DNA of 64,000 nt from Ptychodera flava (taxonomy: Eukaryota > Hemichordata > Enteropneusta > Ptychoderidae): positions 8,202,501-8,266,500 of the forward strand of contig NC_091942.1 in the NCBI RefSeq assembly GCF_041260155.1, given 5' to 3'. Below are positions 8,418 to 64,000 of the stretch, one piece after another. The notes beneath the pieces were generated by a model. It saw only the letters and a list, made by a program, of their open reading frames with translations, made no database searches and had not been told where the DNA came from. How positions within the stretch are numbered: position 1 is the stretch's first letter; every line of letters begins with the position of its first letter. The translations under genes were made by a program, and so were the position numbers.

Positions 8418-8435
8418 GCCCCACGTTGGGCGCCA
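8418..8435 (-). other. tRNA-Lys primer-binding site
   Basis: Five bases inside the 5' LTR, the minus strand reads TGGCGCCCAACGTGGGGC. This is complementary over 18 nt to the 3' end of tRNA-Lys1,2 including CCA, so first-strand synthesis is predicted to be primed by tRNA-Lys. Confidence 0.88.
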
Positions 8436-8440
8436 AATTA

Positions 8441-16576: not shown

Positions 16577-16580
<4 letters not shown>

Positions 16581-16589
16581 ACCTTTGTA

Positions 16590-20736: not shown

Positions 20737-20907
20737 CTGTGCAATAGATGAGAAAAGAATTTTACGTTACACCATCAAACTTCAAGGTGTTGTGTTTGAA
20801 TACTTGTGTTGTTGATTTATAAAGAGAGAGGTTTTGTCAATTGTTTAGTTTTAATTGAAGCGGTATCGTAAAACTTTCTGTATGATTACGCACTTAATAC
20901 AATTATT

Positions 20908-21031
20908 GTTTCACAACGTGTTCTGGTCAAACAGCCTGTACAAGTACAGACATCATGCAGTGTACAGGAGCCAGGAAAAGCCCAACACACGCCATTACAG
21001 GGGCAAAGCTTGTTTTGGCAGGGAACAATCG
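20908..21031 (-). pseudogene. Dead EGF-like exon with deleted donor site
   Basis: The sequence reads as a subfamily-B EGF module (PGSC, TCTGC and RCET are visible). The C2 region is altered to LCPCNG, adding an unpaired cysteine. The acceptor GCACAG is present. At the other end the sequence jumps from the last codons straight into the shared downstream intron: about 25 bp holding the GTAAG donor, present at 9798-9803 and 20608-20613, is missing. It is therefore predicted not to be spliced as an internal exon. This is inferred from comparison with its paralogues. Confidence 0.75.
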
Positions 21032-27466: not shown

Positions 27467-27604
27467 ATGTCTGACAGGTTCTACCAGTGTAACATGGTAA
27501 ACACATGCAAGTGTAGTTGTCATCTGTTAAATTTCTGCTCGTGACCGTACTATTCTCACAAGTTCCTTGATTCATACACGGTTCACTCTCACAGGGATCG
27601 ATTT
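27467..27604 (-). CDS. EGF-like exon E, variant with seven cysteines
   Basis: The exon is 138 nt, phase 1-1, with a pyrimidine-rich acceptor ending TTTCAG and donor GTAAGT on the minus strand. It would encode the first EGF module after the signal peptide. The third loop is long (18 residues) and lacks the PGSC cysteine of the family, while its presumed partner in CLPC is kept. Seven cysteines result, leaving one predicted to be unpaired. Three N-glycosylation sequons (NST, NLT, NYT) cluster in the long loop. The free cysteine could allow dimerisation, but that is speculation. Confidence 0.85.
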
Positions 27605-40000: not shown

Positions 40001-41249
40001 TCGGTTTTGAGGTGCACAAGTAAGCTTGATTAAATATGTTTATTTTGTAGATAATTAATCATACTTTTTATTACAATCATTATTTGCTTTTGACTTACAA
40101 ACGATTGATCTGAACGTCGTTTAAACTGCCCGCACTTATCAGTTTTCACTGTCGGGGGTCTAATAAAATTCAACCCAAGAACTCTTTCATAACTGATAAC
40201 ATCAGCTTGTCTAGACCACAGACAAATAGAGAAATAGACTATCAACGGGTATTGTTCAAGGCGTGAAGCGGTTACGTAACCCATCCATGTTCGCCTCGCC
40301 TCAGGTAGCTCTCGCCTCTCTTTTCCGAAGAGTGCCGACCATGCATCCTTCGGTAATTTTCGGATTTTCGCCAATTGTTAGGCGAAAGTATGTTCGGCAA
40401 AGTTTGTGTTGTTGTTGTCGCGTGGAGCTGAACGGAATTGGCGTACTGGCGAAAACGGTAGTGTTTTGAGCTTCAGGAAAGCGAGTTTTACCATTTTAAA
40501 AATTCCTCACATATTTTTATGAATATATAATGAGTGTGTTTGAACCAAATTTGAAAGTCTTTTATCGATACTGTCTGGTTTTACTCAATGGTTTACGGTC
40601 AGTCATACCGTCTTTTACACGTTCGTCAAGGAAGAACATGTTAATGAAACTGCTGGCATGTTATGTTTTGATTGGCGTGAAGCAGTGTTTCTGCACTGAG
40701 AGCTCACAAAGCAACTGCAGTTGCTACGCGACAGTCAGCACGATGCCATCTCGTCATATTTTTCGCATAATCTCGTGCAATTATCAACCACAAACAAAGT
40801 CTCCAAAAAGTTTAACACCGTTGAAGCTCATTTTAATATGAAAAGGCCATAGTCCGAGACGACCGAGACGACCATGGAACAAAAGGCATGCCGCGTTGCT
40901 AGTCTGTTTTTCTCTTTGTATGTGTCTAGACGTTTGCTGTCAAAACAATCAACAGGAACACAGTTAGTTGACGCTACATGCAAATTTGGTTGGAAACAAG
41001 AAACAAACAACAGCTGTAGTTTTTCATGTACTTTCTCTTTTCAAAGTAACTTGTGCAATGTAAGTATTCAAGTCCGATTACCATAGTTGATTGGCGTGTA
41101 ATTTGTCATGATTCTCACTTTTATTCCGCACTTTTTGCTTACAAAAATTAAACCTGTCTCCAACCACATTTGCGTGTAGCGTCAACTAATTTATTTCCTG
41201 TTCACTGTTTTACGGACACATTTTCTTCTCTATCCAACTATCCTACTCT
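37034..41249. other. Intergenic, no confident gene
   Basis: I see no domain-level coding evidence. The plus-strand frame 40638-40841 begins MLMKLLACYVLIG, which resembles a signal sequence followed by a Cys/Ser-rich stretch. A second plus-strand frame (40874-41057) ends exactly at a GTAAGT donor-like site. Either could be an exon of an unrecognised gene, but nothing else supports them. Confidence 0.3.
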
Positions 41250-41670
41250 ACATACAGACACGATGCCTTTAACACCGCACTGACTTCGTAAGTCGCGGTA
41301 AATGATAAGTACAAATTGTACTCTACAGACAGACACGATGCCTTTAGCACCACTGACTTCGTAAGTCGTGCTAAATGATAAGTACAAATTATATTCTACA
41401 GACAGACACGATGCCTTTAGCACCACTGACTTCGTACGTCGTGCTAAATGATAAGTACAAATTGTACTCTACAGACAGACACGATGCCTTTAGCACCACT
41501 GACTTCGTAAGTCGTGCTAAATGATAAGTACAAATTATACTCTACAGACAGACACGATGCCTTTAGCACCACTGACTTCGTACGTCGTGCTAAATGATAA
41601 GTACAAATTGTACTCTACAGACAGACACGATGCCTTTAGCACCACTGACTTCGTAAGTCGTGCTAAAAGT
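41250..41670 (+). repeat. 73-bp satellite, six copies, each with a hairpin
   Basis: The box ACGATGCCTTTAGCACCACT recurs with CGATGCC at 41261, 41336, 41409, 41482, 41555 and 41628 (period 75, then 73). Within each unit TAGCAC pairs with GTGCTA and GACTT with AAGTC, a short bulged stem-loop. Copies 2 and 4 carry GTAAGTCG and ATTATA; copies 3 and 5 carry GTACGTCG and ATTGTA. The array therefore has a 146-bp dimer periodicity. Confidence 0.95.
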
Positions 41671-42597
41671 TAAGTAAATATTGTCATCCAATTTTGTACA
41701 GGTCAATGGAGCCCGCTGAAAGAACACCCAAAATGACGATCATGAGAGAGTATAAAAATTGGGAATTCCCGACTCTTTGACAAACAGTGAAAAGCTGAGC
41801 ACGGTGACCTACGGAAAAAAAATATAAAAAGTACAAGACGTATATTACCTAACTGCTTCCTATAAAAGTTTTACGAAATTGACAATACTGGAAGGTAGAA
41901 ATATTCCATCAAATAAAACTTTTAGTTTCTGAAATTTTGTTTTGTAAAATGACAAGTTAGGCAAAAATAAAGAAAATTCCAGTTATTCACACACTTTTTT
42001 ATTTAAATTTGAACCTTTACTGTTCAAAATTTTACTTTGGTGTTCAATCGTACGATGAAAATGTGAACATTTTATTCATCAGTCCGGGTCATTTCCAAAA
42101 TTGGCGAGGCTAAACCACAATATTATTTCCATTATTAGCCAAATCACCGATCGGATTACGTCATCGATAAGACTTCTGTCTCTGCAGGTTTGCTAGCATT
42201 GTATTAATCACTTTCAGCCATTTTCGGCCCTCATGTAGGCCGTAAACCCCAAAACTTTGCACTTCTTTCATTATCAATATGATCCTGTGTTCTGCAAGCA
42301 CAATCAATAAGACTATTAATCAAAGCAGCAGCCAAGATATTTACGTTTCATTTAGATCACCCCTTTCCTAATTTCCTTCATCTCTCTCTGGCGTAGAATG
42401 TTTGATAGCTGCCATCTCCAATTTTTTCTGAACTATCTGTGTATTCTGAACTATCTGTGTAGATACGCAATGTATATTTCGCAAGACTTTAGGCAAGGCA
42501 TGAAAGCAATATGTGGGGTTCGGTTGTCTGAGATGAGACTAACAATGCGTGTTGACAGAGTGGCTACACAACTGTCCAAGATTATGAAAGAATACGG
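41671..42597. other. Intergenic, nothing recognised
   Basis: AT-rich sequence with short open frames only; no splice-consistent exon. Confidence 0.4.
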
Positions 42598-44838: not shown

Positions 44839-45831
44839 TTAATAGACTATTTCATAATCAGAGTTTTCTGTAAATCTGTCACGTTCCATACTGGTTCCAT
44901 GAAGCAGCTCACCGCCTTCGCATACAAGATTACTTTCGCCTCGGGAAATTTCGTCTCGTGGCGGACTTTTATCAGTGGCCTGGTCAGAACCTTCACTGGT
45001 GATATTTGTTTTGAAGCCGTGATTCCCAGCCTGGATAACATTTTGGTCCAGACGCTGTTCTTCTCCTTCATAAGCTGTACGCTCAACAAATCTGCTTGCA
45101 TACTGCTGTTGAAGAGCGCCCCTACTGTATTCTCCGTCTCCCGGTTGGTTTGTAAATTTCTTTGATGTGGGGGTCTTTATGGATTGGTATTCACTCTTGG
45201 GTACCTTTTCAAGTTGGGTGTAGGCAGATTCTCCAGCGCTGTGATTCTCGGCCTGGATACCAATGTGGTCTAGACACGCTTCTTTTCCTTTGTAATTTAC
45301 ACTCCCAACGAATTCGCCTACAGACTGCTGTTGAAGAGCGCTCTCACTGTGTTCTCTGTCTCCCTGTTGGTTTGTAAATTTCTTTGATGTGGTGTCGTTA
45401 GGGGTTGGTATTCACTCTTGGGTACCTTTTCAAGTTGGGTGTAGGCAGATTCTCCAGTGTTGTGATTCTCGGCCTGGATAGCATTGTGGTCCAGACACGG
45501 TTCTTCTCCTTCGTAATTTACACTCTCTCCGGTTACAGACTGCTGTTGAAGAGCGACCTCACTGTGTTCTCTGTCTCCCGGTTCGTTTGAAGTTTTGTTT
45601 GACGTGGTAATATTTATGGGTTGGTTTTCACTCTTGGGTACTTTTTCAAGTTCAGTGTAGGCAGATTCTCCTGTGTCTGACTCGAAAGTATGAAAGAACG
45701 GTTCTCCAGAGGCACGGCTGTTATTGTTATTGCTTGGCGACACCTGTGCTGGCCCCTCGACAGAAGGTAGAGTTGTATCGTGAGCTATATCCTGAAGTGT
45801 CATTGCAGAGTTCATCGCCGATTTTTTCAAT
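44839..45831 (-). CDS. Cytoplasmic tail exon with ITAM/ITIM-like repeats
   Basis: This terminal exon follows a TTCCTAG acceptor in phase 2, matching the transmembrane exon upstream. The tail holds three copies of a ~65-residue repeat, each beginning SAYT(E/Q)LEKVPKSE. Repeats 2 and 3 continue into YQPL and YQSI, giving YxxL-x7-YxxL/I, which fits the ITAM consensus. Repeat 1 has N instead of the second Tyr. SAYTEL and SAYTQL also fit the ITIM consensus, and the protein ends in SDYEIVY, another ITIM-like motif. Repeat 2 lacks one base at 45391-45400 relative to repeats 1 and 3. Read literally, the frame then stops at 45318-45320; the repeat pattern resumes in the neighbouring frame until TAA at 44839-44841. 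Confidence 0.82.
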
Positions 45832-47158
45832 CTAGGAATGAAATCAGAGTGATAGGAGTTCAGCGTGAATCGTGATATTTCAACAGCTTATGTGCTGGTC
45901 AATCATTTTGAACAAATATGTTATGTTTAAGGTGCATCTCTAGGTCTGTTCTCTGGTGATAATAAATAACACTATAATGTAAACTATTTATAGCACTTGT
46001 AGTTACTGAGTCACATGAATGTAAGTCATGAGTCATTTTGATTCCACACTTGTCAATTTTGTCTGTTGATTTCTCTGAAGATTTTTTAATATTACTTTAT
46101 GATTATTGTAAGTATTTTGTATATTGCAATATGGTTGCAAAAGTGGACCCATTTAAACGCTTTTTGCAAACTTGCTGGCACTTCCATTGATAATGATCTG
46201 AGCAAATATTTCAATTTATACGGTGTATTGGTTCTAGAGAGGACGATTTTTCAATATTTAACTGAATTCAAAGTCATGCGACTGCTTGCAACCTTATTTC
46301 CAAATTTTAGTAAACCAAGTGGAAGTATTTTATGCAAGAAATTTGAAATAGATTGCCCTCTAATTTTGAGAATATGCCATTTTTTTTGAATTATCTTAAA
46401 GATGAAGAATAACTGCCAAGGTCATGTGAGCAATTAAAGTCCAAGTGTACTATGCTGTAGTACTCTCTAGACCTCCAAACATGGGGTAAAGTTTCGTAAT
46501 GATACGAGCAGTAGTATGTAAGATTATGACAACAAAAAATTACGGCGAAGAAGAATTAAGTAGAAGAAGTATAGAAGAAGAAGGATATTCAAACGAAGTA
46601 AATTGGGATCTACGCCAAGTAGGCTTTAGGGCCTAGCAAACGCATAAAGGAACAGATAAATGGAACACATACGATGTAAAAGGGTACTAATCGTGACCAT
46701 GAAAATCTATAAAATGCGCCAAGATGTCCTTGGTTATCGCTAATTTTGATAAAGACGTCACACTCTATGAGACCAATAATACACGCATGTACCACTCTTT
46801 TTTTGAGAAGTTGACCACCCTGCTGCATGTGTCTCTTCGTTCGAAGGACTTTTTCTATTAATGTAAATCTCACAAAGATATTTAACGTATAACTATTATT
46901 CTTGAATCGTAGATTTTGAATGGCTAACAGGTTCTATTTAGCTACTATCAGGTTTGGTGCTCTCTTAAATAGTTCTGTTGAAATCATATCTTGTCATTTA
47001 TTATACATAAATTATGTAATAAAATAGTTATACATGGACGAGATTTGTAAGAGTAGCATTATTAAAAATGTCCTTTGAACTAAGAAACATAATCAGCTGT
47101 GTGATCGGCTTTTCGAAAAAAAGGAGTTTTGGTTTCCCGATTTGTATTTAATACTCAC
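45832..47158. other. Intron between the TM and tail exons
   Basis: AT-rich; no exon recognised. The donor GTGAGT lies at its upper end (47153-47158) and the acceptor TTCCTAG at its lower end (about 45832-45838), on the minus strand. Confidence 0.7.
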
Positions 47159-47240
47159 CCTCTTTTCCTGATGAGAATAAATAAAATGACGAATAAGACC
47201 AGAAGCACAATCACTGCTATTACAGCTCCAATTATAGCTC
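47159..47240 (-). CDS. Transmembrane exon of the EGF/ITAM receptor
   Basis: This 82-nt exon encodes 26 full codons. The peptide is a continuous hydrophobic helix (AIIGAVIAVIVLLVLF, then VILFILI) followed by RKR, a stop-transfer signal. It starts in phase 1, as expected after an EGF-like exon, and ends in phase 2 at a GTGAGT donor, as the tail exon requires. The minus-strand acceptor is a T-rich tract ending ATAAG. It anchors the EGF-repeat ectodomain as a type I membrane protein with the tail inside the cell. No membrane-proximal stalk exon was identified between here and 49344. Confidence 0.85.
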
Positions 47241-49343
47241 CTTATCGTGAAATAATAAAGGAAAACGTTTCACTACATTCACAATCATTAATTATGTCTC
47301 GACTCTTTGGCGTAAGCTTCCATAATCAGTGCAATTAATCATTTCACAGTCCATCAAATCGTGTCGTGATGTAGCCTACTCTCGCCAGTTCATCATTACT
47401 ATTGCCTCCTCAACGTAAGTTCTCCCACGCCCTGGCCCCCTCTTTATGCCAGCTTGTTTTTTCTTTTTTTGCAAATTATTCGCTTTGTCTGCTTTTGTGA
47501 CAGTGTGTGTCCATCTGTCTATCCCTACTCGACTTACAGCTTCAACTGTAACTGTATTCTTAAAATCTGAAGGAGTAGAGCAACAGAGCATGTGAGTGGT
47601 AGTGGAACATGAATGGAGATAACTGAACGAAGCCGCCTGCTACCAACAACACCATAAATTGGAAAGACTTTGTTTTCTTTGAAAACTAAATTGCAATGAA
47701 TTTCAAATAATTTAAGAAAGCATACACCTAGGGGACAGATATTTGGCCTGTCAAACGTTTACAATACTTTTTCGGTCTAACAATAGCGGGGGTTTTTTTA
47801 AATAGTAAATAGTTTGAACCGTCATAGTAAAATCAAAATTTTATTTTTGTCCCTTAGAGTTAACACCGTCCCCAAGGGATTTTGAATTTGAAGTGTCGGG
47901 TAATTTGTTTCTCTAGCACCCAATTTTTACGGCGACCCCTGAATTTTATTCATAGTTTCTAGAGGGAATTGTTTGAAATCTTCTCTAAGAAAGTTTGAAA
48001 AAAGTTTGAACACTTTCAATTTCGAGGCACGTACTACCTAAGTATGCAATGTGCGCAAATGTGTTTTGATTATATCTTCGATTTTTCGCTTTGGTTTCGT
48101 GTTTCAACAAATCACAGGACTCGCTGTGAAATTCTTGTCTGTTTTAATGCCTCTCATACAGTCAATGCTAGTATTGATACCGTAGGTATGGCTGCCTACC
48201 TGTCTGGTTTCTTTTGTCTTCTAGCTTTTCCATGACCGAGTACAGTGGTTGAAATCTCCCGTCCTGAATGAGGTGAAGTCTGAGCATCGTATGTAGCACA
48301 GAGCTACTTGAACGTGATGTCATGTCTAGACTTGGTGCTGTAAACTGGAGGGCCTCATTGACGTTCCATCTTTAGGTAATGGGTCAGTTTTCGTTTCTTC
48401 GGTCTGGCTCTCACACTCCAGACCTACCATAGATATTATGTGTAAAGCGTCAGAAAGATAAGATCAAACATGCAAAACTTGCAAGTATGACATTCCATCT
48501 ATACAGTGAAGCCTCCGAGACAAATTAATCTATATAATGGAGCCTCCGAAAATAACAAGTGTGACCGTCAATCACTTACTTTAACAAGTTTATTATAATC
48601 GACGAAATGGCGCAATAAGGGACTGGACAGGAAATTATGGGGGGGGGGGGCCAGTGTTTTTCAAAATAACTCTGCACATAAAATAGTGGGCACACAAACA
48701 GACAAACATACATACAAACCCTCCTTTGTACACACATTCATACACACAAACATATATTAATACATAAAAACAATACATACATAATGTATTTCCGTTATTA
48801 ATATCTATATCGCTTATTATTAGCTTTTATGATGCATACATACATACATAAAAAAGATTCAAAGGTCCGTCACTTTCACTTATCTGAAAAAAGGGGAGTG
48901 GATTCCTTGCATTTTGCCAGATAACTATGATGGGAAAACATACATGTTGTGGGCGTCCATTATACTGTTGTCATCTGGTGTAGAAGCAGTGGGTCAAAGG
49001 TCAGGGACTGAGGACTTCGGCTTTCAAAGACTTGGCAGGTTCTAGACCTGGTGTATTTTTGTTCCAGAAATCGAGAACATTTTCTCATTCTGTTCCCTGA
49101 GGCATGTTGAAATGCTAGTGTTGCAAAATAGGTTTTCAGTGAGTTCTCTAAGATTCAGTTACCAGCATTTGACATCATAACCATATAGACTGAGTTTACA
49201 AGTGGAACACAGGGCATTTCAACATGACATTGGGGTACTCCTCAAAACCTGTAAATGAGTCATCATTTGCAGATATTCACTGCACTAGAAACCAAATGAT
49301 AACGTGAACCGATTACTCTCCTTGTTCCGACATGTATACTTAC
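47241..49343. other. Intron between EGF exon F1 and the TM exon
   Basis: No convincing exon. At 48616 a TA plus AGGGACTGG end, with a G-run behind it, is a fragment of the TIR family of the element at 17501. A TACATACA-type low-complexity stretch lies at 48700-48850. Confidence 0.55.
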
Positions 49344-49465
49344 GGATTTGGCAGATGGTTCCAGAGTAACAAGATGGACAGGAACATGTGTACTCAAAGC
49401 ATGACGTCGTACTCCGCGAGCAGACACCACCTTCTGACATGGGTCTGGTGAGCATGAATTGATTT
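49344..49465 (-). pseudogene. EGF-like exon F1 with a one-base deletion
   Basis: This would be the last EGF module before the membrane. Acceptor TTCCCAG and donor GTAAGT are good and both introns are phase 1. The module begins SCSPDPCQ, then loses one base inside the expected N-G-G codons. The remaining pattern (GGVC, TTSC, YTCSCPSCYSG, CQI) continues in the next frame. The length is 122 nt instead of the family's 123, which confirms a single-base loss. Either the exon is inactivated or the base is missing from the assembly; indel differences between the duplicated copies nearby make an error plausible. Confidence 0.8.
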
Positions 49466-49539
49466 CTGGGAAGTAAAGCAACAACTAAGAGACAAACTAG
49501 ATTTAAGGTTGTAAAAGAAAATTTTAAAGTTTTGCTTAA

Positions 49540-50420
49540 AGTGGCACTCCATTTGGTAACATTTTCAAAACACATTTTTTAGTGCCAACGGTCGATATTT
49601 GACGTGGCGACTGCGCGCGGATCGCGAGATATCGATAAAACATGTCTTCAAAAAAGTAAAAGTTTGAATTCCGGTGGCCCACCTAAATTTAGCTTCCGAA
49701 CATCGAACGTTCGGCACTGGGGCCATTGTCAACTAAGCTATGGAGTACAAGTCTACACTGACGCTGCTGTACGCCACAGTACCACTTGCCTCGGTGATCG
49801 GTCATGCCCCGTGGGAGAAAGCTGAGTCTTACTGACTTGGTGATAGAACGAAAAACAATTTTTGCTGATTCTACCAGAATTCGCATAGGTGACTAGCCCA
49901 GTTACGTGCGGTTGATACATAGCGGCCACCGCGTGGTATGCATAGACGCATACCACGCGCGCGGCGAACCACACGTACTGCGTGGCAGACGACAAAATGT
50001 AGCCATCGGGACGGCTAATATTAACACGTAAAAACTTATGTTTATGTGGTATTGGTTAAAATATAATACAACTGATTTAGAATAATGACAACAACAAATC
50101 TATGAAGAAGTTTTCAAAAACTGACCTGTGGTAAAGGCATAATGCTGTATATAAAGTCTTCGCAGTGGGAGGTAAAATTGCGTCGTTCGAACTTATTATG
50201 GACTCCCTAGAATATCGTCAATCAGCACAACAACAAACCTTCGGTGGATTTCGCGTCATAATCAGAAACGATCGTAAAACTTCGGGATGTGAAAAATACG
50301 CTCGGGAAATGACATGTTTTTATCGATATCTCGCGATCCGCGCGCAGTCGCCACGTCAAATATTGACCGTTGACATTAAAAAAATGTGTTTTAAAAATGT
50401 TACCAAATGGGAGTGCCTCT
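49540..50420. mobile_element. Non-autonomous DNA transposon, TTAA target site
   Basis: The element is 881 bp, flanked by TTAA at 49536-49539 and 50421-50424. The inverted ends begin AG(T/A)GGCACTCC and stay similar for about 120 bp, sharing ATTTGGTAACATTTT and GACGTGGCGACTGCGCGCGG. No transposase is present. TTAA targets are used by piggyBac and Kolobok superfamilies; I do not assign it further. It lies in the intron between exons F2 and F1. Confidence 0.85.
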
Positions 50421-50468
50421 TTAACCACAGCAAGGAAATTTGACACTGTCCCATTTTTTATAATTGAG

Positions 50469-51235
50469 AATAAAACTCTGGGGTCGCCATGCAGCGCTTG
50501 GGATACAACACGAATTACCTCAAATTTACTGTTATTTACAGTTCAAAATGACCACAATATATTATGTGTTACCTGTATAGTTATAGTTTTTTAAATTTTG
50601 ATTTTTACAAAAACAAGTGGTAAACACTTCATCAGCTACTCCATAGGCTTCACAATTAGTCCACAAAGGCAGCAGTAACAGAAAGTATTGTACAATCTGA
50701 ATCCCCAAAACTGGCCAAAAAGTCTATTCACAATTTAAAAGAAGAGCTGACATGACAGAAAGTTCTACAACAAGCAAATTGTTGAAATTGAAGAGATTGT
50801 ATCTTCTTTGTAATTGACACGTATCAGGCTACATATAAAAACTCTAGTGACCTTAATAAGACGATGTAAAACAGTATTCAAGTTTTCATCAATTGTTAAT
50901 AATATTTACTTCAAAATTAATTTTATAGAACAGAACATCAGAAGCAAACGTCTACAGAACAGGGAAGAAAAAAAATTACCAAATTGTTTGCAAAGCAAAT
51001 GGATTTGCCCAGTCCGTGCAATCATTTGAGAAGTGGTACTTCGTGATATATGAATACTTTCAGCCATTACATGGCCTCTGTTTTGTCTATGACATGATGT
51101 CATCAGTTTGAGGCCATACCACTCTATCTTGTATGTTTGTGTCTGTTTGTTAGCACCGATTTCACCTGTCATTGATAGCAGGGAAGTCCCTGAAGAATTC
51201 AAGATTTTTCCCCTCAATCCAAATTTTGTCTTTAC
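50469..51235. other. Intron between exons F2 and F1
   Basis: No exon. A duplicate lies at 57896-58638 with several small deletions. Open frames reading out of the exon here are intron read-through. Confidence 0.6.
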
Positions 51236-51357
51236 CTTGTTCACAGTTGAAACCTTGAAACAGTCAATGCAGGTACACTGGTAGGCAGTACAGGAACCCT
51301 GGATTGAAGAACACAGACCGCCATTTTGACACGGGTTCTGGTCACAAACATCAACCG
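51236..51357 (-). pseudogene. EGF-like exon F2, one-base deletion
   Basis: Splice sites are intact (acceptor TTTTCAG, donor GTAAAG, phase 1-1). The first seven cysteines are normal (CDQNPCQNGG, QGSC, QCTCIDC). One C is then missing in the codons after CF, so the last cysteine is out of frame. The exon is 122 nt, while its duplicate at 58639 is 123 nt and intact. Real mutation and assembly error cannot be told apart from the sequence. Confidence 0.82.
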
Positions 51358-52017
51358 CTGAAAAATCAAAAGTCAACACATAGCCAGCAAAAGTCAAATA
51401 TCAGCATGTTAAGCTATCTTATACATGGATTCAATCATATGGAATTGAAATAAAGTAATAACTTCTTTTGTTCGGTTTTTATCTTTCCTTTTTTAAGACT
51501 AGAAATAAAATTAGGTGTCCTATGTAAATTTTGTAATGAACGAGAAAGTACCTCAAATATATCAAGATTTGGAAATAATTTGATAAAAAAATAAACTTTG
51601 ATTTAACACCAAAACAGACCAACAGTTTTATTATCAAATGGTTTTGCAGGAGCCTCACAAGCTGGGGACCATATAAAAGTATACAATTTTGAGAGTATGA
51701 AGTTCTCTACTGAAGTTACATGTACATGATATGGAACATGTAATGTATATCGCAGAGACTATGATCAGGAAGACTGCTACATTTTTCACAAATTGAAAGT
51801 GGGACCATACTTAACCTAATAGCCCCTTGTGTATGAATTAATCTTTGTTGAAAATCAATAAGATGGTGATGCTGGATACCAACTTTACAAGAGACCAAAC
51901 TGGGAATAAGGAATACAATATTCCAATCACTGAATATTAGTTCAATGCTGGCAAGTACATAATATTCTAAGTCATTCAATCGACAGAAACAAAAAAACAG
52001 AGTGGTCTTTGACTTAC
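51358..52017. other. Intron between exons F3 and F2
   Basis: No exon. The duplicate is 58762-59339, which lacks about 80 bp of this copy. Confidence 0.65.
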
Positions 52018-52143
52018 GGATTTGACAGAGTTGACCAGTCCAGCAGCTGCTGGGACATGTGCATGTATATTCTGTGCATGAGCCTGGCACTGGAGAACAG
52101 AAGCCGCCATTTTGACATGGGAAAGAGTTGCATGGGTCGACCA
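52018..52143 (-). CDS. EGF-like exon F3, right gene
   Basis: The exon is 126 nt, phase 1-1, with acceptor AATTTCAG and donor GTAAGT on the minus strand. It encodes an eight-cysteine module of spacing 4-5-6-4-1-3-5 (CQNGGF, PGSC, YTCTCPSSCWTG). The extra Ser in CPSSC is peculiar to this exon and its duplicate. Unlike the duplicate at 59340, the frame is intact to the donor. Confidence 0.87.
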
Positions 52144-52753
52144 CTGAAATTCAAAGAAATAAACATGAAACACACTTCATTAATTATGACGGTATAACAT
52201 CTGTAGATCGAGTGAAAATAATCTCTTCAGCAGAAATGATCAAACTAATACAAGATATGTTTCTTGGTCGGATGAAAACAGGTTTAAAAAATAAAAGTGG
52301 TATACACGTGACATGACCAGGATATATACCGGTACACACACTTGAACTATGAGATACGATATGTTGGGCTTCTTTTCTCATGTCATGAAAACATTTTTCC
52401 ATCCAAATGTTAAATTTTGTTGCAATAAAGCAACCCTTGATAGATTACACTTAGAGAGACATGTTTGCTCCTTGACCGATAATCATCTTTGACATAATAA
52501 AATATGCAAATAAAACTAAATACACCTATAATTTTGGATAAATTATTGTTCAATGGAAAAGTTTACTATAAACCGTCTGATCAGTGGTGAATTTTGCGGC
52601 ATGGAGCACAATTTGGATTAGTGTCAAAATTTTAAGGTGGAAGACATTAATTTTTTAGAGATTTTTATCCATAAATATCTCCATGAGTTGAAGTTACGTC
52701 CAGTACGGAATAGGATGTCCAAACAAAGAGGAGACTGTAATAAGAAGACTCAC
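52144..52753. other. Intron between exons F4 and F3, containing the identity switch
   Basis: No exon. Up to about 52475 it differs noticeably from copy 2 (59467-59785); beyond that point the two copies become almost identical. Confidence 0.65.
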
Positions 52754-52870
52754 ACTGAAGACAGTTATCTCCTTCATAGCAGTCAGGGCAGATGCATCTC
52801 TGTGTCTGGCATCCCGTCTCAATGCATGTACCGCCATTGGCACACGGATTTGGTGAACAAGGATTAAGCA
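52754..52870 (-). CDS. EGF-like exon F4, right gene
   Basis: The exon is 117 nt, phase 1-1, with acceptor TTTCTGCAG and donor GTGAGT on the minus strand. It encodes an eight-cysteine module of spacing 4-5-4-4-1-2-5, with a third loop two residues shorter (IETG). The core CANGGT and CPDCYEG are clear. Its duplicate at 60064-60180 gives the same protein. Confidence 0.88.
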
Positions 52871-55800
52871 CTGCAGAAACAGTCAAGATAGAAAATTGTT
52901 TTTCTAGATATCGATGACAGGGAGAAACACTTGTCTGACATTTCTTTTCTGTACATTAAAAGATGGATGACTTTGAAGATGACGATGGAAAGGAAAGTCG
53001 TTTGAACATAGAATCTTGGCAGTTGTGCTAGAGTTATTAATCCTCTCGGGTAAAACAAATTGTTATCAATTGTGATTGTGGACCTGTTCAGAGGGAATTT
53101 AGTCCGTAGGCTGGAGGGGCCCACCGTGCACCCCAACACATCTCTATTGTATGGGTTTTTCGTTCTTTAGGATCTGCTGAACAAGAAAAAAGATGTTAAC
53201 ATTGGGTATTTTTAGATGCACTACCTTTCTGGGCTGGTTTTTGATTTGTATGTACCGCGATAATGGCGAAAAATGGGTAGGGGTTACTATGTCCACCAAT
53301 AGATTGAGGAAACCAGCATGAAATAACACAAACCTTACAGTTATGGAAAGATCAGACACTGCTCTTCATGAGAGACACCACATTTAGCAAAATTAATTTT
53401 TGTATATAGAATAGGACAACTTTAAAATAAAAAATTTTGACAATTTTGAAATTTTTCACCCCAAATGCCATATAACAATTGTGATTTACTTTTTATGAAG
53501 CAAAATTTTGACAGCTTGTTATGTTAAGATTATTTATTCCTACATGATAAACGAGAAAATAAGTGTTAACATTATATATATAATAGTACACTTCTTTTCT
53601 GGGGTCAAATTTGAATTGCGTGTATAGTTTTTTAAAGCTTAGATACTGGTCTTTCTATGATGTATAAGTTTTAGTTTTAAAATTATGACGTCATAGAATT
53701 GGATGACTTCAAATCAATTTTCTCTGATGATTCAGTAGTTTTAACCGAAGAAAATATGATAACTATGGTTTCCTTAAAATGAAGCAAAGCAAACAGATTT
53801 ATGGTTTTTATTTATTACAAATTGCGGTGTGCTGAAGAAGAAAAATTTCAAAATTAGGTATTTACCATGCAGTATTGTCTCCTGTCACTAAACTTGCAAA
53901 TTTTCTATACGGGTATATCGTGAATTTAGCAATAACCCCCGCTGCACGAGGGTATACACGAGATTTTGATACAATGCTCGACATATAGCACGAGCCGATA
54001 GGCGAGTTCTATATGGAGCGGGTTGTACCAAATAAGTACAAGAGTTCAAATAAGAAGAAAAAGTAAATTTTTTTTGCGTAAATTAACATAAGAACAATAG
54101 CCCTGGTATAAGCTTACTAAAATAGATTTGTCTCATTCTGTACCGTATTAGTAATTACGTCGACCGTTGCGTCACGACATTAAGAAATGGTACAGTGAGG
54201 TTACAGGAGCTATTTTTGATGGATAATTTGGACTTTCATTGTACTAGAAAATAAGGAGTTTTTAAATAATCCAGACGCGGGATGACTGCAACTGTTGAAC
54301 AGTTGTGCAAAGTGTGGTGCCCGATCGCAATGCAGCGATCGAGAGCTGGACGCTGAAACCACCGCGCCGGTTGCATTTGATGTCAACTTTCATCGCAGTC
54401 GCCAGAAGTCACCCAATTGTTATTTTGAACTTCTTGGTCTACATCGTTAGAACACCCTGATCTGTTACAGCCCAAACTTTGGTTGGGAAAGAATATCTGA
54501 CATACTGTTACTGTGAGGAAGTGTCAATTTATTTGCGTATCAACGAATACTAGCTTCACTTCAAAGAGCGGTAGGATATATCGCGTCTCAACTCCCGCTG
54601 AATCCAGAATAGTGCAAGGCGCGCTATTGCCGTTTTACATCACACCCATATTTGCAGCTTCACAAATGTCTTTCACCATCAATTCCAACTTATTTCAACC
54701 AAGAGGTGAGTTACAGCCTCATACTTTATCTGTGTATCGAAATTCGGATTTCGGTCAAAGCGGACTATTTCGGTTTTTCTCGAGGGCCTATGGTTTACAT
54801 GGGTACGTTCAAATGCACCGACTGGGCAACTTTTGAAAATGCTGGTTTAGAAATTAGAGGCCCGTTTTACTACTGCTATCAGTGCTAAAACAGTATTTTA
54901 GCATCGGATGAATGAGCTCTCGTCCAATCAGAATGGCGCATGGTAGCATGATATAATATAATGAGCATTCTACTGGTATGTGATGAACTAATGCACAGCT
55001 CTAAAAAGAAGACTTAAAAATGCGTCCAAGTAGTCATATTGTCATTTTCTCCTTACAGTAATATAGACTGTGGATGACTGTCTATTTTTATAAATATACT
55101 ATTTTAATATTTTTCTGTGAAATGTTTTTGATAAGACGATGCTTGGAAAATTTTATATGCTCCCTTGTCTTATATTAGTGATACAGCAAGCATCAATATA
55201 TTAGACCATGGGCTAGAGGGGGACTACGTTAACCTTTCCCCTCCCCAGTATAACACATATGTTATTTTTCAGAAGCCTTGGGGTCCCTAGAGTACGAAAT
55301 AGAATTTTAACAGAAAAAATAGAGGGACTTAATAGCTGTTGCGGTCATGCTTTGAAGGGTACCGCAAAATCATGATTTTGCGATCCATATGCATTTTTGT
55401 CAGCTGAGCTTACCTTTTAACATTAACTGGCTTTGTTGTATTATGAGAAAGGCAATTTATTCGCCTTAAAATGATATATTGTAATATGCAATATCTTCTG
55501 TAGTTTTCATAAAAAAGAAGCAAAACTTAACCCATACCCCAAAGTTTATATCGCAAATTACTGTCAAAACTAATCTCAATTTCTACCAATTATTTACCTA
55601 GACATCATAAGAAGGGCAATGCTTTGTATTAAATTTGGATTTTTTGCTACTGGAACATGCTAGAAAAATGAAATAAACTTTCAGCAGAAAAAAATGGTTT
55701 GCTGTAGCTATAATGGCATATTTTTAAGGGTACTGCAAAATCGCAGTACTCGCATACGGTTTTGGTAAACCTATCTTCTTGTAAGTCGTTGCTTAGCTTA

Positions 55801-56234
55801 TTTTTAACATAACCTGGCTAGGGGGTATCATTAGAACGGTAATTTATTTTTCTTAAATAGGCGTGTTGTTGTATGCGATATCTTTTAAAGTGTTAATGAA
55901 AAAGGATCAAACCTTGCTTTATTTTAAGGAAACCATAATTATTATATTTTCTTTCGGTTAAAAATTGCTGAATTACTCGAAAAAAAATCGATTTAAATTT
56001 ATCCAATTCTATGACGTCATATTTTTTAAACTAAAACTTATATATTATAGAAAGTCCAGTATCTAAGCTTTCAAAAACTCTAAGGTATATGGCAATTCTA
56101 GCCAATTTACTTTATCAAGGAAAGAATGTTGTACCCCTAACCCCTAGCTTTTGCGTACACCATACGAGATATAAGCAATTCAAAATTGACCCAAGAAAAG
56201 TAGTGTAGTGTTAAATATATAATGTTAGTACTTA
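52871..56234. other. Long intron between F5 relic and F4
   Basis: No confirmed exon. On the plus strand at 54666-54706 an ATG opens MSFTINSNLFQPRG and stops at an AGAG|GTGAGT donor, in a GC-richer stretch. On the minus strand near 53040-53085 a similar ITIDNNLFYPRG is read. These may be remnants of one unrecognised first exon in opposite orientations. The rest is AT-rich. Confidence 0.4.
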
Positions 56235-56360
56235 TTGTCTTGTTTATTATGTAGAAACTCCAAGCATTGTGTACACGTGCAAAGTGGCACAGTGTACTGA
56301 CCCGGCGCTGCCTGACAGAAACCGACGTTCCCATTAGGGTTAGGCTGACATGGATTAACA
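56235..56360 (-). pseudogene. Decayed EGF-like exon F5
   Basis: The minus strand reads NPCQPNPNGNVGFCQAAPGQ and then a C-x-C-x2-C cluster, recognisable as the EGF module. The second, fourth and last cysteines are missing, and the expected AG acceptor before the first codons is CTACAACTG. It is therefore predicted not to be spliced in. The duplicate near 63545-63665 has the same lesions. Confidence 0.6.
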
Positions 56361-56890
56361 GTTGTAGGGAAACAAAATCAGTTTGAAATCGAGCAACAGA
56401 CTATCAGGAATCAGCCCTGCTGGAAGAAAATGTAGGAGAAGTCAAGTTCAAACTCACTTCACACATCAGACGAATAGTCAACTTTGTATTTTAATTTACC
56501 AGTTTACAGAAAATAAGGAAGCTTTTCACTTCTTAGAGAGCGTTCAGTTATTATGGCCTTGAGGGGGTGGGCGGCAAATTCTTCCTGTGCATCAGTCAAA
56601 ATAGGTGAATCCCCTACCCATTGCTCAAAAAAATTGGTGAGCCCCCTTTTAAGATGACAAAAATTTCATGACCCCCCACATTGCTTAAATAAATCTGCAC
56701 ACACAAACATCTCGGGGGCGAGAACCCCAAAAAAGATTGTCAGCTTTTTTCAAATGATCCCCTATACAACTCACAAGGTGTTAATGTTCAGTTTCCCCTT
56801 CTGGCTTGCTATAATTTTTAAATTACCCCTCAAAGGGATTGGACAGAAATTACAGTTGATCGCAATATTTTTGCGCAAGCGCGAATTCCT
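56361..56890. other. Intron with C-rich dispersed repeat
   Basis: 56560-56720 is a G/C-tract sequence similar to 63840-64000 (the duplicate) and, more loosely, to the left end of the element at 17501. No exon. Confidence 0.5.
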
Positions 56891-56899
56891 GCACCAAAC

Positions 56900-57790
56900 T
56901 TGATGATACTTGCATCAAATATTGATCTGATATATATCTAATTATACTTAGAAGCATTTGGCAGTGTCAAGTTAACGATTAGCTCATTTGCATATTTTAT
57001 GAAGTTTTGTAATTAGTCATATAACTCCAATATAACTTCACCAAATGTGATGAAATCTGCTGCAGATACTGATCCGACTGATATCTAACTGTAGTGTAAA
57101 GCATTCAGTAGTGTGAAATTAATTAGGGGTTCATTTGCATATTTAATGAACTTTTGTAATTAGTGATATTACTCCAAAATTAAAGCATTAAATTTGATGA
57201 AACTTGCTACAGATGTTGATCTGATAAATATCCAATTGTACTGAGAAGCATTGAGCAGTGTCAAGTTAATAATTAGCTCATTTGCATATTTCATGAAGTT
57301 TTATAATTAGTCACATAAGTCCGAAATAACTGCATCAAACGTCATGAAAACTGCAGCATGTACTGATCCGACAGATATCTAACTGTGGTGTAAAGTAGTT
57401 AGTAGTGTAAAGTTAATTAAGGGTTCATTTGCATATTTAATAAACTTTGTAATTAGGTATATAACTCTGAAATTACGGCACCAAATTTTGTGAAACGTGC
57501 TACAGAAATTGATTTGATAAATATTTAATTGTGCTATGAATCATTGTACAGTGACAAGTTAATTTAGGGTTTTTGCATATTTAATGACTTTGTAATTAGC
57601 TACATTATCTCTAAAATTACAGCACTAAATTAAATAAAACGTGCTACAAATGTTGATCTGATGGATATGTAATTGTCCCATGAAGCATTGAGCAGTGTCA
57701 AGTTAATTAACAGCTCATTTGCATATTAAATAAATTGAATTTGTGATTAAACTCTGAGAGTACTGTGCGAAGTTAAAAAAACCAGCTATA
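56900..57790 (+). repeat. 147-bp satellite, about six copies
   Basis: The box CATTTGCATATT, or its equivalent, starts at 56985, 57132, 57279, 57426, about 57569 and 57716, giving a period of 147 bp with one shortened unit. Units alternate between a TTAGCTCATTTG type and an AGGGGTTCATTTG type, so the higher-order period is 294 bp. The array ends about 100 bp before the start of duplication copy 2. Confidence 0.9.
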
Positions 57791-58638
57791 TAGTGATAAC
57801 ATATATCTTGTTGTTCTGTGAAGGGTACTACTATTAATGAACCTGTTGTAAAACACATGAGCATATTCAGTTCATATCTGGTTTATGATCGAGAATAAAA
57901 CTCTGGGGTCGCCATGCAGCGCTTGGGATACAACACGAATTACTATTTACAGTTCAAAATGACCACAATATATTATATGTTACCTGTAGGTAGTTAGAAT
58001 TTTGTTTAAATTTTGATTTTTATAAAAACAAGGTGGTAAACACTTCATCAGCTACTCTTTAGGCTTCACAATTAGTCCACAAAGGCAGCAGTAACAAAAG
58101 GATTGTAAAATCTGAGTCCCAAAAACTGTCCAAAAAGTATAGTCGTAATTTAAAAGAAGACAGAGCTGACATAACAGAAAGTTCTACAACAAGCAAAATT
58201 GTTGAAATTGAAGAGATTGTATCTTCTTTGTAATTGACACGTAGTGACCTTAATAAGACGATGTCAAACAGTATTCAAGTTTTCATCAATTGTTTAACAA
58301 TGTTTTACTTCAAAATTAATTTTATAGAACAGAACATCAGAAAGCAAACTTCTACAGAACAGGAAAGAAAAAAAATTACCAAATTGCTTGCAAAAGCAAA
58401 CGGATTTGCCGAGTCTGTGCTATCATTTGAGAAGTGGTAGTCCGTGATATATATGAATAATTTCAGCCATTACATGGCCTCTGTTTTGTCTATGACATGA
58501 TGTCATCAGTTTGAGGCCATACCACTCTATCTTGTATGTTTGTGTCTGTTTGTTAGCACCGATTTCACCTGTCATTGATAGCAGGGAAAGTCCCTGAAGA
58601 ATTCAAGATTTTCCCCTCAATCCAAATTTTGTCTTTAC

Positions 58639-58761
58639 CTTGTTCACAGTTGAAACCTTGGAAACAGTCAATGCAGGTACACTGGTAGGCAGTACAGGAA
58701 TCCTGGATTGAAGAACACTGACCACCATTTTGACACGGGTTCTGGTCACAAACATCAACCG
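58639..58761 (-). CDS. EGF-like exon G2, right gene (intact twin of F2)
   Basis: The exon is 123 nt, phase 1-1, with acceptor TTTTTAG and donor GTAAAG on the minus strand. It encodes an eight-cysteine module of spacing 4-5-6-4-1-2-5 (CQNGGQ, QDSC, CIDCFQGFNC). Compared with F2 it carries substitutions (for example QDSC for QGSC) and retains the base missing there. Confidence 0.87.
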
Positions 58762-59339
58762 CTAAAAATCAAAAGTCAACACATAGCCAGCAAAAGTCAA
58801 ATATCAGCATGTTAAGCTATCTTATACATGGATTTATATGGAATTTATGGAATTTGAAATAAAGCAATAACTTATTTTGTTCGGGGGACATTTTTATCTT
58901 TCCTATTTAAGACTAAAAATAATTAACACCAAAACAGACCAACAGTTTTATTATCAAATGGTTTTGCAGGAGTCCTCACAAGCTAGGGACCAGATAAAAG
59001 TATACAATTGAGAGAGTATGAAATTGTCTTCTGAAGTTACATGTACATGATATGGAACATGTAATGTATATCGCAGAGACTATGATCAGGAAGATTGCTA
59101 CATTTTTCACAAATTGAAAGTGGGACCAAACTTAACCCAATAGCCCTTGTGTATGAATTAATCTTTTTTGAAAATCAATAAGATGGTGATGCTGGATACC
59201 AACTTTACAAGAGACCAAACTGAGAATAAGGAATACAATATTCCAATCACTGAATATCAGTTCAGTGTTGGCAAGTACATAATACTCTAAGTCATTCAAT
59301 CGACAAAAACAAAAAAAACCAGAGTGATCTTTGACTTAC

Positions 59340-59466
59340 GGATTTGACAGAGTGTGACCAGTCCAGCAGCTGCTGGGACATGTGCATGTATATTCTGTGC
59401 ATGAGCCTGGCACTGGAGAACAGAAGCCGCCATTTTGACATGGAATTGAGTTGCATGGGTCGACCA
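59340..59466 (-). pseudogene. EGF-like exon G3, one-base insertion (twin of F3)
   Basis: The splice sites are intact, but the exon is 127 nt where F3 has 126. One extra base between the WTG and QLC codons (GGTCACACTC against GGTCAACTC) shifts the last cysteine out of frame. The rest of the module (PGSC, CTCPSSCW) is normal. It may be a real lesion or an assembly indel. Confidence 0.82.
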
Positions 59467-60063
59467 CTGAAATTCAAAGAAATAAACATGAAACACACTT
59501 CATTAATTATGACTGTACAACATCTGTAGATCGAGTGAAAATAATCTCTTCAGCAGAAATGATCAAACTAATACAAGATATGTTTGTTGGTGGGATGAAA
59601 ACAAGTTAAAAAAATAAAAGTGGCATACACGTGACATATACCGGTACACACACTTGAACTATGAGATACGATATGTTGGGCATTTTTGTCATATCATGGA
59701 ACATTTTCCCATCCAAATGTTAAATTTTGTTTCAAAAAAATCAACCCTTGATAGATTACACTTAGAGAGACATGATCGCGCCTTGACCGATAATCATCTT
59801 TGACATAATAAAATATGCAAATAAAACTAAATACACCTATAATTTTGGATAAATTATTGTTCAATGGAAAAGTTTACTATAAACCGTCTGATCAGTGGTG
59901 AATTTTGCGGCATGGAGCACAATTTGGATTAGTGTCAAAATTTAAGGTGGAAGACATTAATTTTTTAGAGATTTTTATCCATAAATATCTCCATGAGTTG
60001 AAGTTACGTCCAGTACGGAATAGGATGTCCAAACAAAGAGGAGACTGTAATAAGAAGACTCAC

Positions 60064-60180
60064 ACTGAAGACAGTTATCTCCTTCATAGCAGTCAGGGCA
60101 GATGCATCTCTGTGTCTGGCATCCCGTCTCAATGCATGTACCGCCATTGGCACACGGATTTGGTGAACAAGGATTAAGCA
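60064..60180 (-). CDS. EGF-like exon G4, right gene (twin of F4)
   Basis: The exon is 117 nt, phase 1-1, with acceptor TTTCTGCAG and donor GTGAGT on the minus strand. It encodes the same module as F4 (spacing 4-5-4-4-1-2-5) with no amino-acid change. It lies in the part of the duplication that is almost identical between copies. Confidence 0.88.
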
Positions 60181-63100
60181 CTGCAGAAACAGTCAAGATA
60201 GAAAATTGTTTTTCTAGATATCGATGACAGGGAGAAACACTTGTCTGACATTTCTTTTCTGTACATTAAAAGATGGATGACTTTGAAGATGACGATGGAA
60301 AGGAAAGTCGTTTTGAACATAGAATCTTGGCAGTTGTGCTAGAGTTATTAATCCTCTCGGGTAAAACAAATTGTTATCAATTGTGATTGTGGACCTGTTC
60401 AGAGGGAATTTAGTCCGTAGGCTGGAGGGGCCCACCGTGCACCCCAACACATCTCTATTGTATGGGTTTTTCGTTCTTTAGGATCTGCTGAACAAGAAAA
60501 AAGATGTTAACATTGGGTATTTTTAGATGCACTACCTTTCTGGGCTGGTTTTTGATTTGTATGTACCGCGATAATGGCGAAAAATGGGTAGGGGTTACTA
60601 TGTCCACCAATAGATTGAGGAAACCAGCATGAAATAACACAAACCTTACAGTTATGGAAAGATCAGACACTGCTCTTCATGAGAGACACCACATTTAGCA
60701 AAATTAATTTTTGTATATAGAATAGGACAACTTTAAAATAAAAAAATTTTGACAATTTTGAAATTTTTCACCCCAAATGCCATATAACAATTGTGATTTA
60801 CTTTTTATGAAGCAAAATTTTGACAGCTTGTTATGTTAAGATTATTTATTCCTACATGATAAACGAGAAAATAAGTGTTAACATTATATATATAATAGTA
60901 CACTTCTTTTCTGGGGTCAAATTTGAATTGCGTGTATAGTTTTTTAAAGCTTAGATACTGGTCTTTCTATGATGTATAAGTTTTAGTTTTAAAATTATGA
61001 CGTCATAGAATTGGATGACTTCAAATCAATTTTCTCTGATGATTCAGTAGTTTTAACCGGAAGAAAATATGATAACTATGGTTTCCTTAAAATGAAGCAA
61101 AGCAAACAGATTTATGGTTTTTATTTACAAATTGCGGTGTGCTGAAGAAGAAAAATTTCAAAATTAGGTATTTACCATGCAGTATTGTCTCCTGTCACTA
61201 AACTTGCAAATTTTCTATACGGGTATATCGTGAATTTAGCAATAACCCCCGCTGCACGAGGTATACACGAGATTTTGATACAATGCTCGACATATAGCAC
61301 GAGCCGATAGGCGAGTTCTATATGGAGCGGGTTGTACCAAATAAGTACAAGAGTTCAAATAAGAAGAAAAAGTAAATTTTTTTTGCGTAAATTAACATAA
61401 GAACAATAGCCCTGGTATAAGCTTACTAAAATAGATTTGTCTCATTCTGTACCGTATTAGTAATTACGTCGACCGTTGCGTCACGACATTAAGAATGGTA
61501 CAGTGAGGTTACAGGAGCTATTTTTGATGGATAATTTGGACTTTCATTGTACTAGAAAATAAGAGTTTTTAAATAATCCAGACGCGGGATGACTGCAACT
61601 GTTGAACAGTTGTGCAAAGTGTGGTGCCCGATCGCAATGCAGCGATCGAGAGCTGGACGCTGAAACCACCGCGCCGGTTGCATTTGATGTCAACTTTCAT
61701 CGCAGTCGCCAGAAGTCACCCAATTGTTATTTTGAACTTCTTGGTCTACATCGTTAGAACACCCTGATCTGTTACAGCCCAAACTTTGGTTGGGAAAGAA
61801 TATCTGACATACTGTTACTGTGAGGAAGTGTCAATTTATTTGCGTATCAACGAATACTAGCTTCACTTCAAAGAGCGGTAGGATATATCGCGTCTCAACT
61901 CCCGCTGAATCCAGAATAGTGCAAGGCGCGCTATTGCCGTTTTACATCACACCCATATTTGCAGCTTCACAAATGTCTTTCACCATCAATTCCAACTTAT
62001 TTCAACCAAGAGGTGAGTTACAGCCTCATACTTTATCTGTGTATCGAAATTCGGATTTCGGTCAAAGCGGACTATTTCGGTTTTTCTCGAGGGCCTATGG
62101 TTTACATGGGTACGTTCAAATGCACCGACTGGGCAACTTTTGAAAATGCTGGTTTAGAAATTAGAGGCCCGTTTTACTACTGCTATCAGTGCTAAAACAG
62201 TATTTTAGCATCGGATGAATGAGCTCTCGTCCAATCAGAATGGCGCATGGTAGCATGATATAATATAATGAGCATTCTACTGGTATGTGATGAACTAATG
62301 CACAGCTCTAAAAAGAAGACTTAAAAATGCGTCCAAGTAGTCATATTGTCATTTTCTCCTTACAGTAATATAGACTGTGGATGACTGTCTATTTTTATAA
62401 ATATACTATTTTAATATTTTTCTGTGAAATGTTTTTGATAAGACGATGCTTGGAAAATTTTATATGCTCCCTTGTCTTATATTAGTGATACAGCAAGCAT
62501 CAATATATTAGACCATGGGCTAGAGGGGGACTACGTTAACCTTTCCCCTCCCCAGTATAACACATATGTTATTTTTCAGAAGCCTTGGGGTCCCTAGAGT
62601 ACGAAATAGAATTTTAACAGAAAAAATAGAGGGACTTAATAGCTGTTGCGGTCATGCTTTGAAGGGTACCGCAAAATCATGATTTTGCGATCCATATGCA
62701 TTTTGTCAGCTGAGCTTACCTTTTAACATTAACTGGCTTTGTTGTATTATGAGAAAGGCAATTTATTCGCCTTAAAATGATATATTGTAATATGCAATAT
62801 CTTCTGTAGTTTTCATAAAAAAGAAGCAAAACTTAACCCATACCCCAAAGTTTATATCGCAAATTACTGTCAAAACTAATCTCAATTTCTACCAATTATT
62901 TACCTAGACATCATAAGAAGGGCAATGCTTTGTATTAAATTTGGATTTTTTGCTACTGGAACATGCTAGAAAAATGAAATAAACTTTCAGCAGAAAAAAA
63001 TTGGTTTGCTGTAGCTATAATGGCATATTTTTAAGGGTACTGCAAAATCGCAGTACTCGCATACGGTTTTGGTAAACCTATCTTCTTGTAAGTCGTTGCT

Positions 63101-63544
63101 TAGCTTATTTTTAACATAACCTGGCTAGGGGGTATCATTAGAACGGTAATTTATTTTTCTTAAATAGGCGTGTTGTTGTATGCGATATCTTTTAAAGTGT
63201 TAATGAAAAAGGATCAAACCTTGCTTTATTTTAAGGAAACCATAATTATTATATTTTCTTTCGGTTAAAAATTGCTGAATTACTCGAAAAAAAATCGATT
63301 TAAATTTATCCAATTCTATGACGTCATATTTTTTAAACTAAAACTTATATATTATAGAAAGTCCAGTATCTAAGCTTTCAAAAACTCTAAGGTATATGGC
63401 AATTCTAGCCAATTTACTTTATCAAGGAAAGAATGTTGTACCCCTAACCCCTAGCTTTTGCGTACCCATACGAGATATAAGCAATTCAAAATTGACCCAA
63501 GAAAAGTAGTGTAGTGTTAAATATATAATGTTAGTACTTATTGT
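60181..63544. other. Long intron, duplicate of 52871-56234
   Basis: This repeats the earlier intron with an offset of about 7.3 kb, including the NLFQPRG-type frame (61973-62013) and its inverted NLFYPRG-type counterpart near 60350-60395. No confirmed exon. Confidence 0.5.
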
Positions 63545-63665
63545 CTTGTTTATTATGTAGAAACTCCAGCATTGTGTACACGTGCAAAGTGGCACAGTGT
63601 ACTGACCCGGCGCTGCCTGACAGAAACCGACGTTCCCATTAGGGTTAGGCTGACATGGATTAACA
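63545..63665 (-). pseudogene. Decayed EGF-like exon G5 (twin of F5)
   Basis: This has the same missing cysteines and missing AG acceptor as the copy at 56235, plus one further single-base difference (CTCCAGC against CTCCAAGC on the plus strand). Confidence 0.6.
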
Positions 63666-64000
63666 GTTGTAGGGAAACAAAATCAGTTTGAAATCGAGCA
63701 ACAGACTATCAGGAATCAGCCCTGCTGGAAGAAAATGTAGGAGAAGTCAAGTTCAAACTCACTTCACACATCAGACGAATAGTCAACTTTGTATTTTAAT
63801 TTACCAGTTTACAGAAAATAAGGAAGCTTTTCACTTCTTAGAGAGCGTTCAGTTATTATGGCCTTGAGGGGGTGGGCGGCAAATTCTTCCTGTGCATCAG
63901 TCAAAATAGGTGAATCCCCTACCCATTGCTCAAAAAAATTGGTGAGCCCCTTTTAAGATGACAAAAATTTCATGACCCCCCACATTGCTTAAATAAATCT

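Follow-up and report, generated by a model that had tools for sequence, protein, structure and literature searches.

A receptor gene fragment with EGF-like exons and an ITAM-type tail, from a family found in Ptychodera flava

In vertebrates, lymphocytes and phagocytes depend centrally on ITAM signaling, and Draper is an invertebrate case. The ITAM consensus is [D/E]xxYxxL/I-x6-8-YxxL/I, and the ITIM consensus is [S/I/V/L]xYxx[L/I/V]. Laminin-type or atypical EGF repeats are a trait of the CED-1/Draper/MEGF10 family. Draper is described as signaling through Src42A, its ITAM, and Shark (PMC4503800), and MEGF10 through Src-family kinases and Syk (PMC8092387). The Draper ITAM is described as serving wound recruitment and as dispensable for corpse processing, which leans more on NPXY (PMC4503800). 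Searches of the open-licence literature on hemichordates, Ptychodera, and non-vertebrate ITAMs retrieved no hemichordate EGF-ITAM receptor, as judged by title and the start of the abstract.

We analyzed a 64-kb window of DNA (the whole stretch, 64,000 nucleotides). Its minus strand, from beyond 64000 to 44839, carries the 3' portion of a gene for a single-pass receptor, probably of an acorn worm; the 5' end of the gene lies outside the window. Read 5' to 3', it contains EGF-like exons (63667 to 49344), a stalk exon (approximately 48423 to 48200), a transmembrane (TM) exon (47240 to 47159), and a tail exon (45831 to 44839) that ends in a stop codon. The earlier note had listed EGF-like, TM, and tail exons. 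All are present, and the TM and tail exons align with two P. flava proteins, P0001 (266 aa) and P0002 (577 aa). It had overlooked the stalk exon, with which P0001 also aligns.

Both proteins are uncharacterized, and they were the only tail relatives retrieved in three protein searches. Each tail open reading frame (ORF) used as a query returned one match, P0001 (E 3.2e-31 among 27 candidates and E 2.6e-36 among 24). A longer composite query, scored over the TM and tail only, returned one match, P0002 (E 3.2e-71; 5363 candidates). No tail relative from outside P. flava was found in these searches, which consider candidates that have exact words in common with the query and are 0.55 to 1.75 times as long, so this absence is not proof. 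The locus is a real gene fragment with an ITAM-type tail, and the family is seen only in P. flava in the searches made. This agrees with the earlier proposal of a distinct family.

The tail of the locus is 56 to 65% identical to those of P0001 and P0002 over long alignments, and P0001 and P0002 are 80% alike. The lower identity points to a diverged paralogue or to a species other than P. flava. P0001 matches the stalk, TM, and tail exons in order. P0002 combines five EGF domains, a stalk rich in Ser and Thr, a TM helix, and this type of tail in one annotated protein, with PF00008 matched in five stretches (Pfam; E 2.1e-30). It thus shares with the locus the EGF repeats, which P0001 lacks, as well as the stalk, TM, tail, and ITAM pair with its spacing. 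Because P0002 unites EGF domains and tail, the EGF-to-tail join holds for the receptor family, and this annotated model gives the best reason to read the EGF and tail exons of the locus as probably one protein. The combination of EGF repeats, TM, and ITAM-type tail had been proposed before P0002 was found. The earlier note would have given up the proposal if EGF and TM/tail exons were never joined or if the tyrosines were not conserved. Among annotated proteins, P0002 joins the exons and both relatives keep the tyrosine pair. No signal peptide is visible in either annotated model, and P0002 seems to be 5' incomplete. The two proteins are probably encoded on one chromosome.

Upstream of the stalk, a profile built from the EGFs of the window picked out nine EGF-like exons, of which four are in frame. 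Those at 52019-52144, 52755-52871, and 58640-58762 are intact and of an eight-cysteine type, and that at 60065-60181 is intact and identical to 52755-52871 over 39 codons. Three contain a frame change. The last EGF exon before the stalk (49344-49465) is of the eight-cysteine type and contains 122 nt with the change inside, so the phase of 1-1 claimed for it is not literally correct. The 3' part is out of frame in 51254-51358, which has a closely similar intact copy at 58640-58762, and in 59354-59467, which has a near-identical intact copy at 52019-52144. The other two are degenerate (56264-56362 and its duplicate, 63566-63667). Eight of the nine exons make up four duplicate pairs. Pairs 52019/59354, 52755/60065, and 56264/63566 lie within a 5.1-kb near-duplicate, and pair 51254/58640 lies within an adjoining 1.08-kb stretch. 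The presumed intron space of the gene also holds a tandem repeat of 147/294 bp (56891-57731).

The stalk exon (48200-48423) matches the N terminus of P0001 in two frames. Its 5' edge was placed by eye and is uncertain. The TM exon (47159-47240) encodes AIIGAVIAVIVLLVLFVILFILIRKR in phases 1-2, with splice sites that appear good by eye. It matches P0001 at 80% over 30 residues and P0002 at 70% over 27. The RKR that follows the helix would fit a type I orientation. The tail exon (44839-45831) is cytoplasmic, contains 993 nt in approximately 330 codons, is entered in phase 2, and stops at 44839-44841. A tblastn search with P0001 (E up to 10) found no second tail or TM exon in the 64-kb window; it returned short plus-strand matches at 50474-50512 and 57899-57937 (E 0.53). 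Among the matches listed for P0002, there were only further EGF matches and one weak tail self-match (E 0.78). Rfam returned nothing at gathering score.

Downstream of the tail stop, the minus strand contains a second array of EGF exons, mostly of the eight-cysteine type (799-27602). It is probably a neighboring paralogous gene with its tail outside the window. An LTR retroelement is present at 1096-9318, with minus-strand ORFs at 2034-8181 and LTRs at 1096-1974 and 8438-9318 (98.3% identity). When three of its separate ORFs were scanned one by one, they matched integrase, reverse transcriptase, and PNMA with a CCHC zinc knuckle. The ORFs are split into overlapping frames despite the similar LTRs. 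No target-site duplication was found in the 10 bases beyond either end of the LTR alignment, the ends being approximate. The window also contains a 73-bp unit in six copies (41244-41684; 94% matches) and a 341-bp tandem repeat of 3.5 copies at 12440-13633 and 16580-17387, with related copies in opposite orientation.

Ten intact EGFs of the window were aligned, and all have eight invariant cysteines. Three are from the receptor gene without its duplicates, and seven are from the downstream array. Exon 60065 (a duplicate), the degenerate exons and those with a frame break, fragments, 20907-21026 (with other spacing), and 27471-27602, which is without the first extra cysteine, were left out of the alignment. 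Six of the eight cysteines fit PF00008 and Notch EGFs, and the six canonical cysteines and the NGG turn are present in 10 of 10 exons. The two extra cysteines lie between canonical C3 and C4 and between C5 and C6. Their joint presence in all ten EGFs suggests a fourth disulfide. P0002 encodes five six-cysteine, Notch-like EGFs without the extra pair (counted by eye), whereas those of the locus are mostly of the eight-cysteine type. PF00008 was matched by 8 of the 10 chosen EGFs at E up to 1 (score shown, 22.8 against a cutoff of 21.5). AlphaFold2, run on one window EGF with 10 sequences, gave a mean pLDDT of 61.8, a confidence too low to base a fold search on. No work about eight-cysteine EGFs was found in the open-licence literature, judged by title.

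The tail contains a tandem array on the minus strand (45019-45676; period, 221; 3.0 copies; 83% matches) whose repeated unit is the one that bears the ITAM-like pair. Unit 2 encodes YTQLEKVPKSEYQPL (45399-45443), which reads YTQL-x7-YQPL, with Tyr codons at 45441-45443 and 45408-45410 in the upstream frame. Unit 3 encodes YTQLEKVPKSEYQSI (45178-45222), which reads YTQL-x7-YQSI, with Tyr codons at 45220-45222 and 45187-45189 in the downstream frame. These tyrosines sit where they had been placed before. Unit 1, the 5'-most, contains YTEL, but its second Tyr is replaced by Asn, and it is preceded by FHTF. In P0001 and in P0002 the unit occurs once, with an extra motif upstream. P0001 reads YHTL-x8-YTEL-x7-YQSL, and P0002 reads YYTL-x8-YTEL-x7-YQPL. 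The Tyr of YHTL and YYTL is Phe at this locus, which has three units instead. Since these form one repeat of approximately 221 bp that is single in both relatives, the multi-ITAM tail proposed earlier is not supported as such and reflects local amplification of a single unit, with unit 1 degenerate.

P0001, P0002, and units 2 and 3 all retain the sequence ExxYT[E/Q]L-x7-YQ[P/S][L/I], which is an ITAM consensus. All four match [D/E]xxYxxL/I-x6-8-YxxL/I at the level of the motif, with 11 residues from Tyr to Tyr. Both proteins and the window units have Glu at position -3 relative to the Tyr that opens the x7 pair. When the 329-residue tail was shuffled 20,000 times, 0.7% of the shuffled sequences contained an ITAM with x6-8 spacing, and 0.13% contained one that also had an acidic residue at -3. 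With the P0001 tail (20,000 trials), the x6-8 motif with acidic -3 occurred in 0.18%. The pair exceeds chance expectation and recurs in two P. flava proteins. Units 1 to 3 are tandem copies and give no independent evidence for the motif. No NPxY was found in any of the three tails (the window tail read in two frames, P0001, and P0002).

One continuous frame had been assumed for the tail. Instead, it is open only as two overlapping ORFs, with the unit 2 pair in 45321-45887 and the unit 3 pair in 44842-45411. An intron between the two frames was ruled out, as the alignments with the P. flava proteins run across the break and no residues are lacking there. The frame also changes in the stalk and the last EGF exon, and the stalk donor phase implies a second change there (by eye). 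The phases proposed earlier (1-1, 1-2, and 2) are thus compatible at the splice sites, but the reading frame is interrupted within these exons.

The best explanation is a working hemichordate ITAM-type receptor with EGF repeats, stalk, TM, and a thrice-repeated ITAM unit, in which the frame changes are more likely assembly errors. We consider this reading probable and think sequence errors in a working gene likelier than a pseudogene. As a decaying paralogue of a working P. flava-type receptor, the locus would carry its frame changes as real mutations. This is possible but rather doubtful. It would account for the altered frames of the tail, stalk, and last EGF exon (three of the final four exons), the loss of the second Tyr of unit 1 and of the Tyr before that unit, and two degenerate EGF exons. 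The dN/dS of the tail units is 1.14, 1.48, and 2.15 (NG86 point values), at or above 1, and does not support purifying selection on them. Among 13 EGF exons, 7 of 78 pairs differ at no more than 27% of nucleotides. Their omega is 0.56, 1.02, 1.60, and 1.62 in four paralogous pairs. Of three near-duplicate pairs, two give 0.36 and 0.13, and in the other omega is undefined. Against decay, no in-frame stop was found among the tail codons read, the splice sites look intact by eye, and each of the three duplicate pairs compared, including the LTRs, has many indels, which fits sequence error.

The 5.1-kb near-duplicate (51603-56696 and 58923-64000; 98.6%) differs by 21 indels against 39 mismatches. 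Eighteen of the indels are 1 bp, and 10 of these 18 fall in runs of at least 3, where 22% of the window's bases lie. The adjoining 1.08-kb pair (89.7%) contains 25 indels against 40 mismatches; 18 are 1 bp, and 8 of the 18 are in runs of at least 3. The LTR pair contains 6 indels (5 in runs of 4 to 5) against 9 mismatches. Such ratios are high for biological divergence, and replication slippage can likewise favor runs. Two of the three frame-broken EGF exons (51254 and 59354) have a closely similar intact copy. The 5.1-kb near-duplicate may be a recent tandem duplication, or a second haplotype that the assembly left unmerged. PacBio reads are described as the basis of the assemblies of P. flava and Schizocardium; high heterozygosity is mentioned in connection with the Canu assembly, and polishing and haplotig purging are also reported (PMC11175523). 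Residual indels and false duplications are plausible. Because the tail frames read lack an in-frame stop and local indels are unusually many, assembly errors are more likely than gene death in this copy; the lost tyrosines and the dN/dS above 1 are points against.

The YxxL motifs may also be read as AP-2/clathrin sorting signals for endocytosis or scavenging rather than as phosphorylated ITAMs. YTEL, YTQL, YQPL, YQSL, YHTL, and YQSI all fit the Yxx-bulky consensus. Such signals require neither a paired 11-residue spacing nor an acidic residue at -3, and the pair and its spacing are kept in both relatives, which makes this use unlikely. An inhibitory receptor, whose SxYxxL/I motifs would act as ITIMs and recruit SHP-type phosphatases, is more doubtful still. 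The tail does contain SxYxxL/I/V motifs (SAYTEL, SAYTQL twice, SEYQPL, SEYQSI, and the C-terminal SDYEIV that had been reported earlier). At this locus and in the two P. flava proteins, which keep SxYTxL and SEYQxL/I, each half of the pair agrees with the ITIM consensus. The Tyr-Tyr spacing of 11 residues is ITAM-like, however, and the tyrosines of ITIM pairs usually stand at a greater distance. SDYEIV corresponds to ADYETF or ADYETV in the P. flava relatives, so a strict ITIM is not kept there. The ITIM-like reading proposed earlier is weak for this tail. The spacing supports a predicted ITAM use over either of these. It is highly improbable that the EGF and TM/tail exons are separate genes that neighbor each other by chance, for although this locus is evidenced by annotated proteins and no transcript of it was seen, P0002 holds both parts, and here they share strand and order with the stalk exon between them.

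A working receptor of this kind could signal as follows. A ligand on the EGF array would cluster receptors, and a Src-type kinase would phosphorylate both tyrosines of the pair. By analogy with Draper and MEGF10, the tail should then recruit a tandem-SH2 kinase. The spacing is consistent with a kinase of the Syk/Shark type that would dock across the pair and could drive cell activation or engulfment. A phagocytic or immune function, as proposed earlier, is a possible role. Given the lack of NPxY in these tails and the dispensability of the Draper ITAM for corpse processing, engulfment is less sure than activation, and by this analogy cell activation may be at least as likely.

We tentatively propose, as a real possibility short of an even chance, that a hemichordate-restricted, fast-evolving family reached the EGF-plus-ITAM design independently of CED-1/Draper/MEGF10. 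It would combine one type of tail with varied ectodomains (in P0002 six-cysteine, Notch-like EGFs; here eight-cysteine EGFs with a probable fourth disulfide), change ITAM number by tandem duplication, and form an activating innate-immune repertoire. If so, there would be two EGF-ITAM families whose tails are unrelated, and the hemichordate one would allow a test of the repeated reuse of ITAM/Syk in deuterostome immunity. It would also let one ask whether motif copy number tunes signal strength.

Among known systems, Notch/Delta-type EGF proteins give the best solved-structure matches of P0002 and the window EGFs among the matches listed. PDB sequence searches returned EGF-type matches, 33 for P0002 and the best 60 of 106 for the window EGFs. 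The likeness lies in generic EGF repeats, and no solved-structure match of P0002 reaches the tail. The CED-1/Draper/MEGF10 receptors differ in other respects. The tails of the locus, P0001, and P0002 are without NPxY. Of the 10 chosen window EGFs, 8 match PF00008 and none matches EGF_laminin (Pfam) at E up to 1; in P0002, a laminin EGF scored E 0.4 (11.3 bits against a cutoff of 21). As NPxY and the Pfam laminin EGF are lacking, we do not file the receptor as a member of that family. EMI is not among the 13 Pfam matches to P0002 (E up to 1), a protein that is apparently truncated at its 5' side; the window likewise stops short of the start of the gene. The receptor is nevertheless like Draper and MEGF10 in its EGF-type ectodomain, single TM, and ITAM in the tail (PMC8092387, PMC4503800). 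By this analogy, it may work like a Draper-type receptor.
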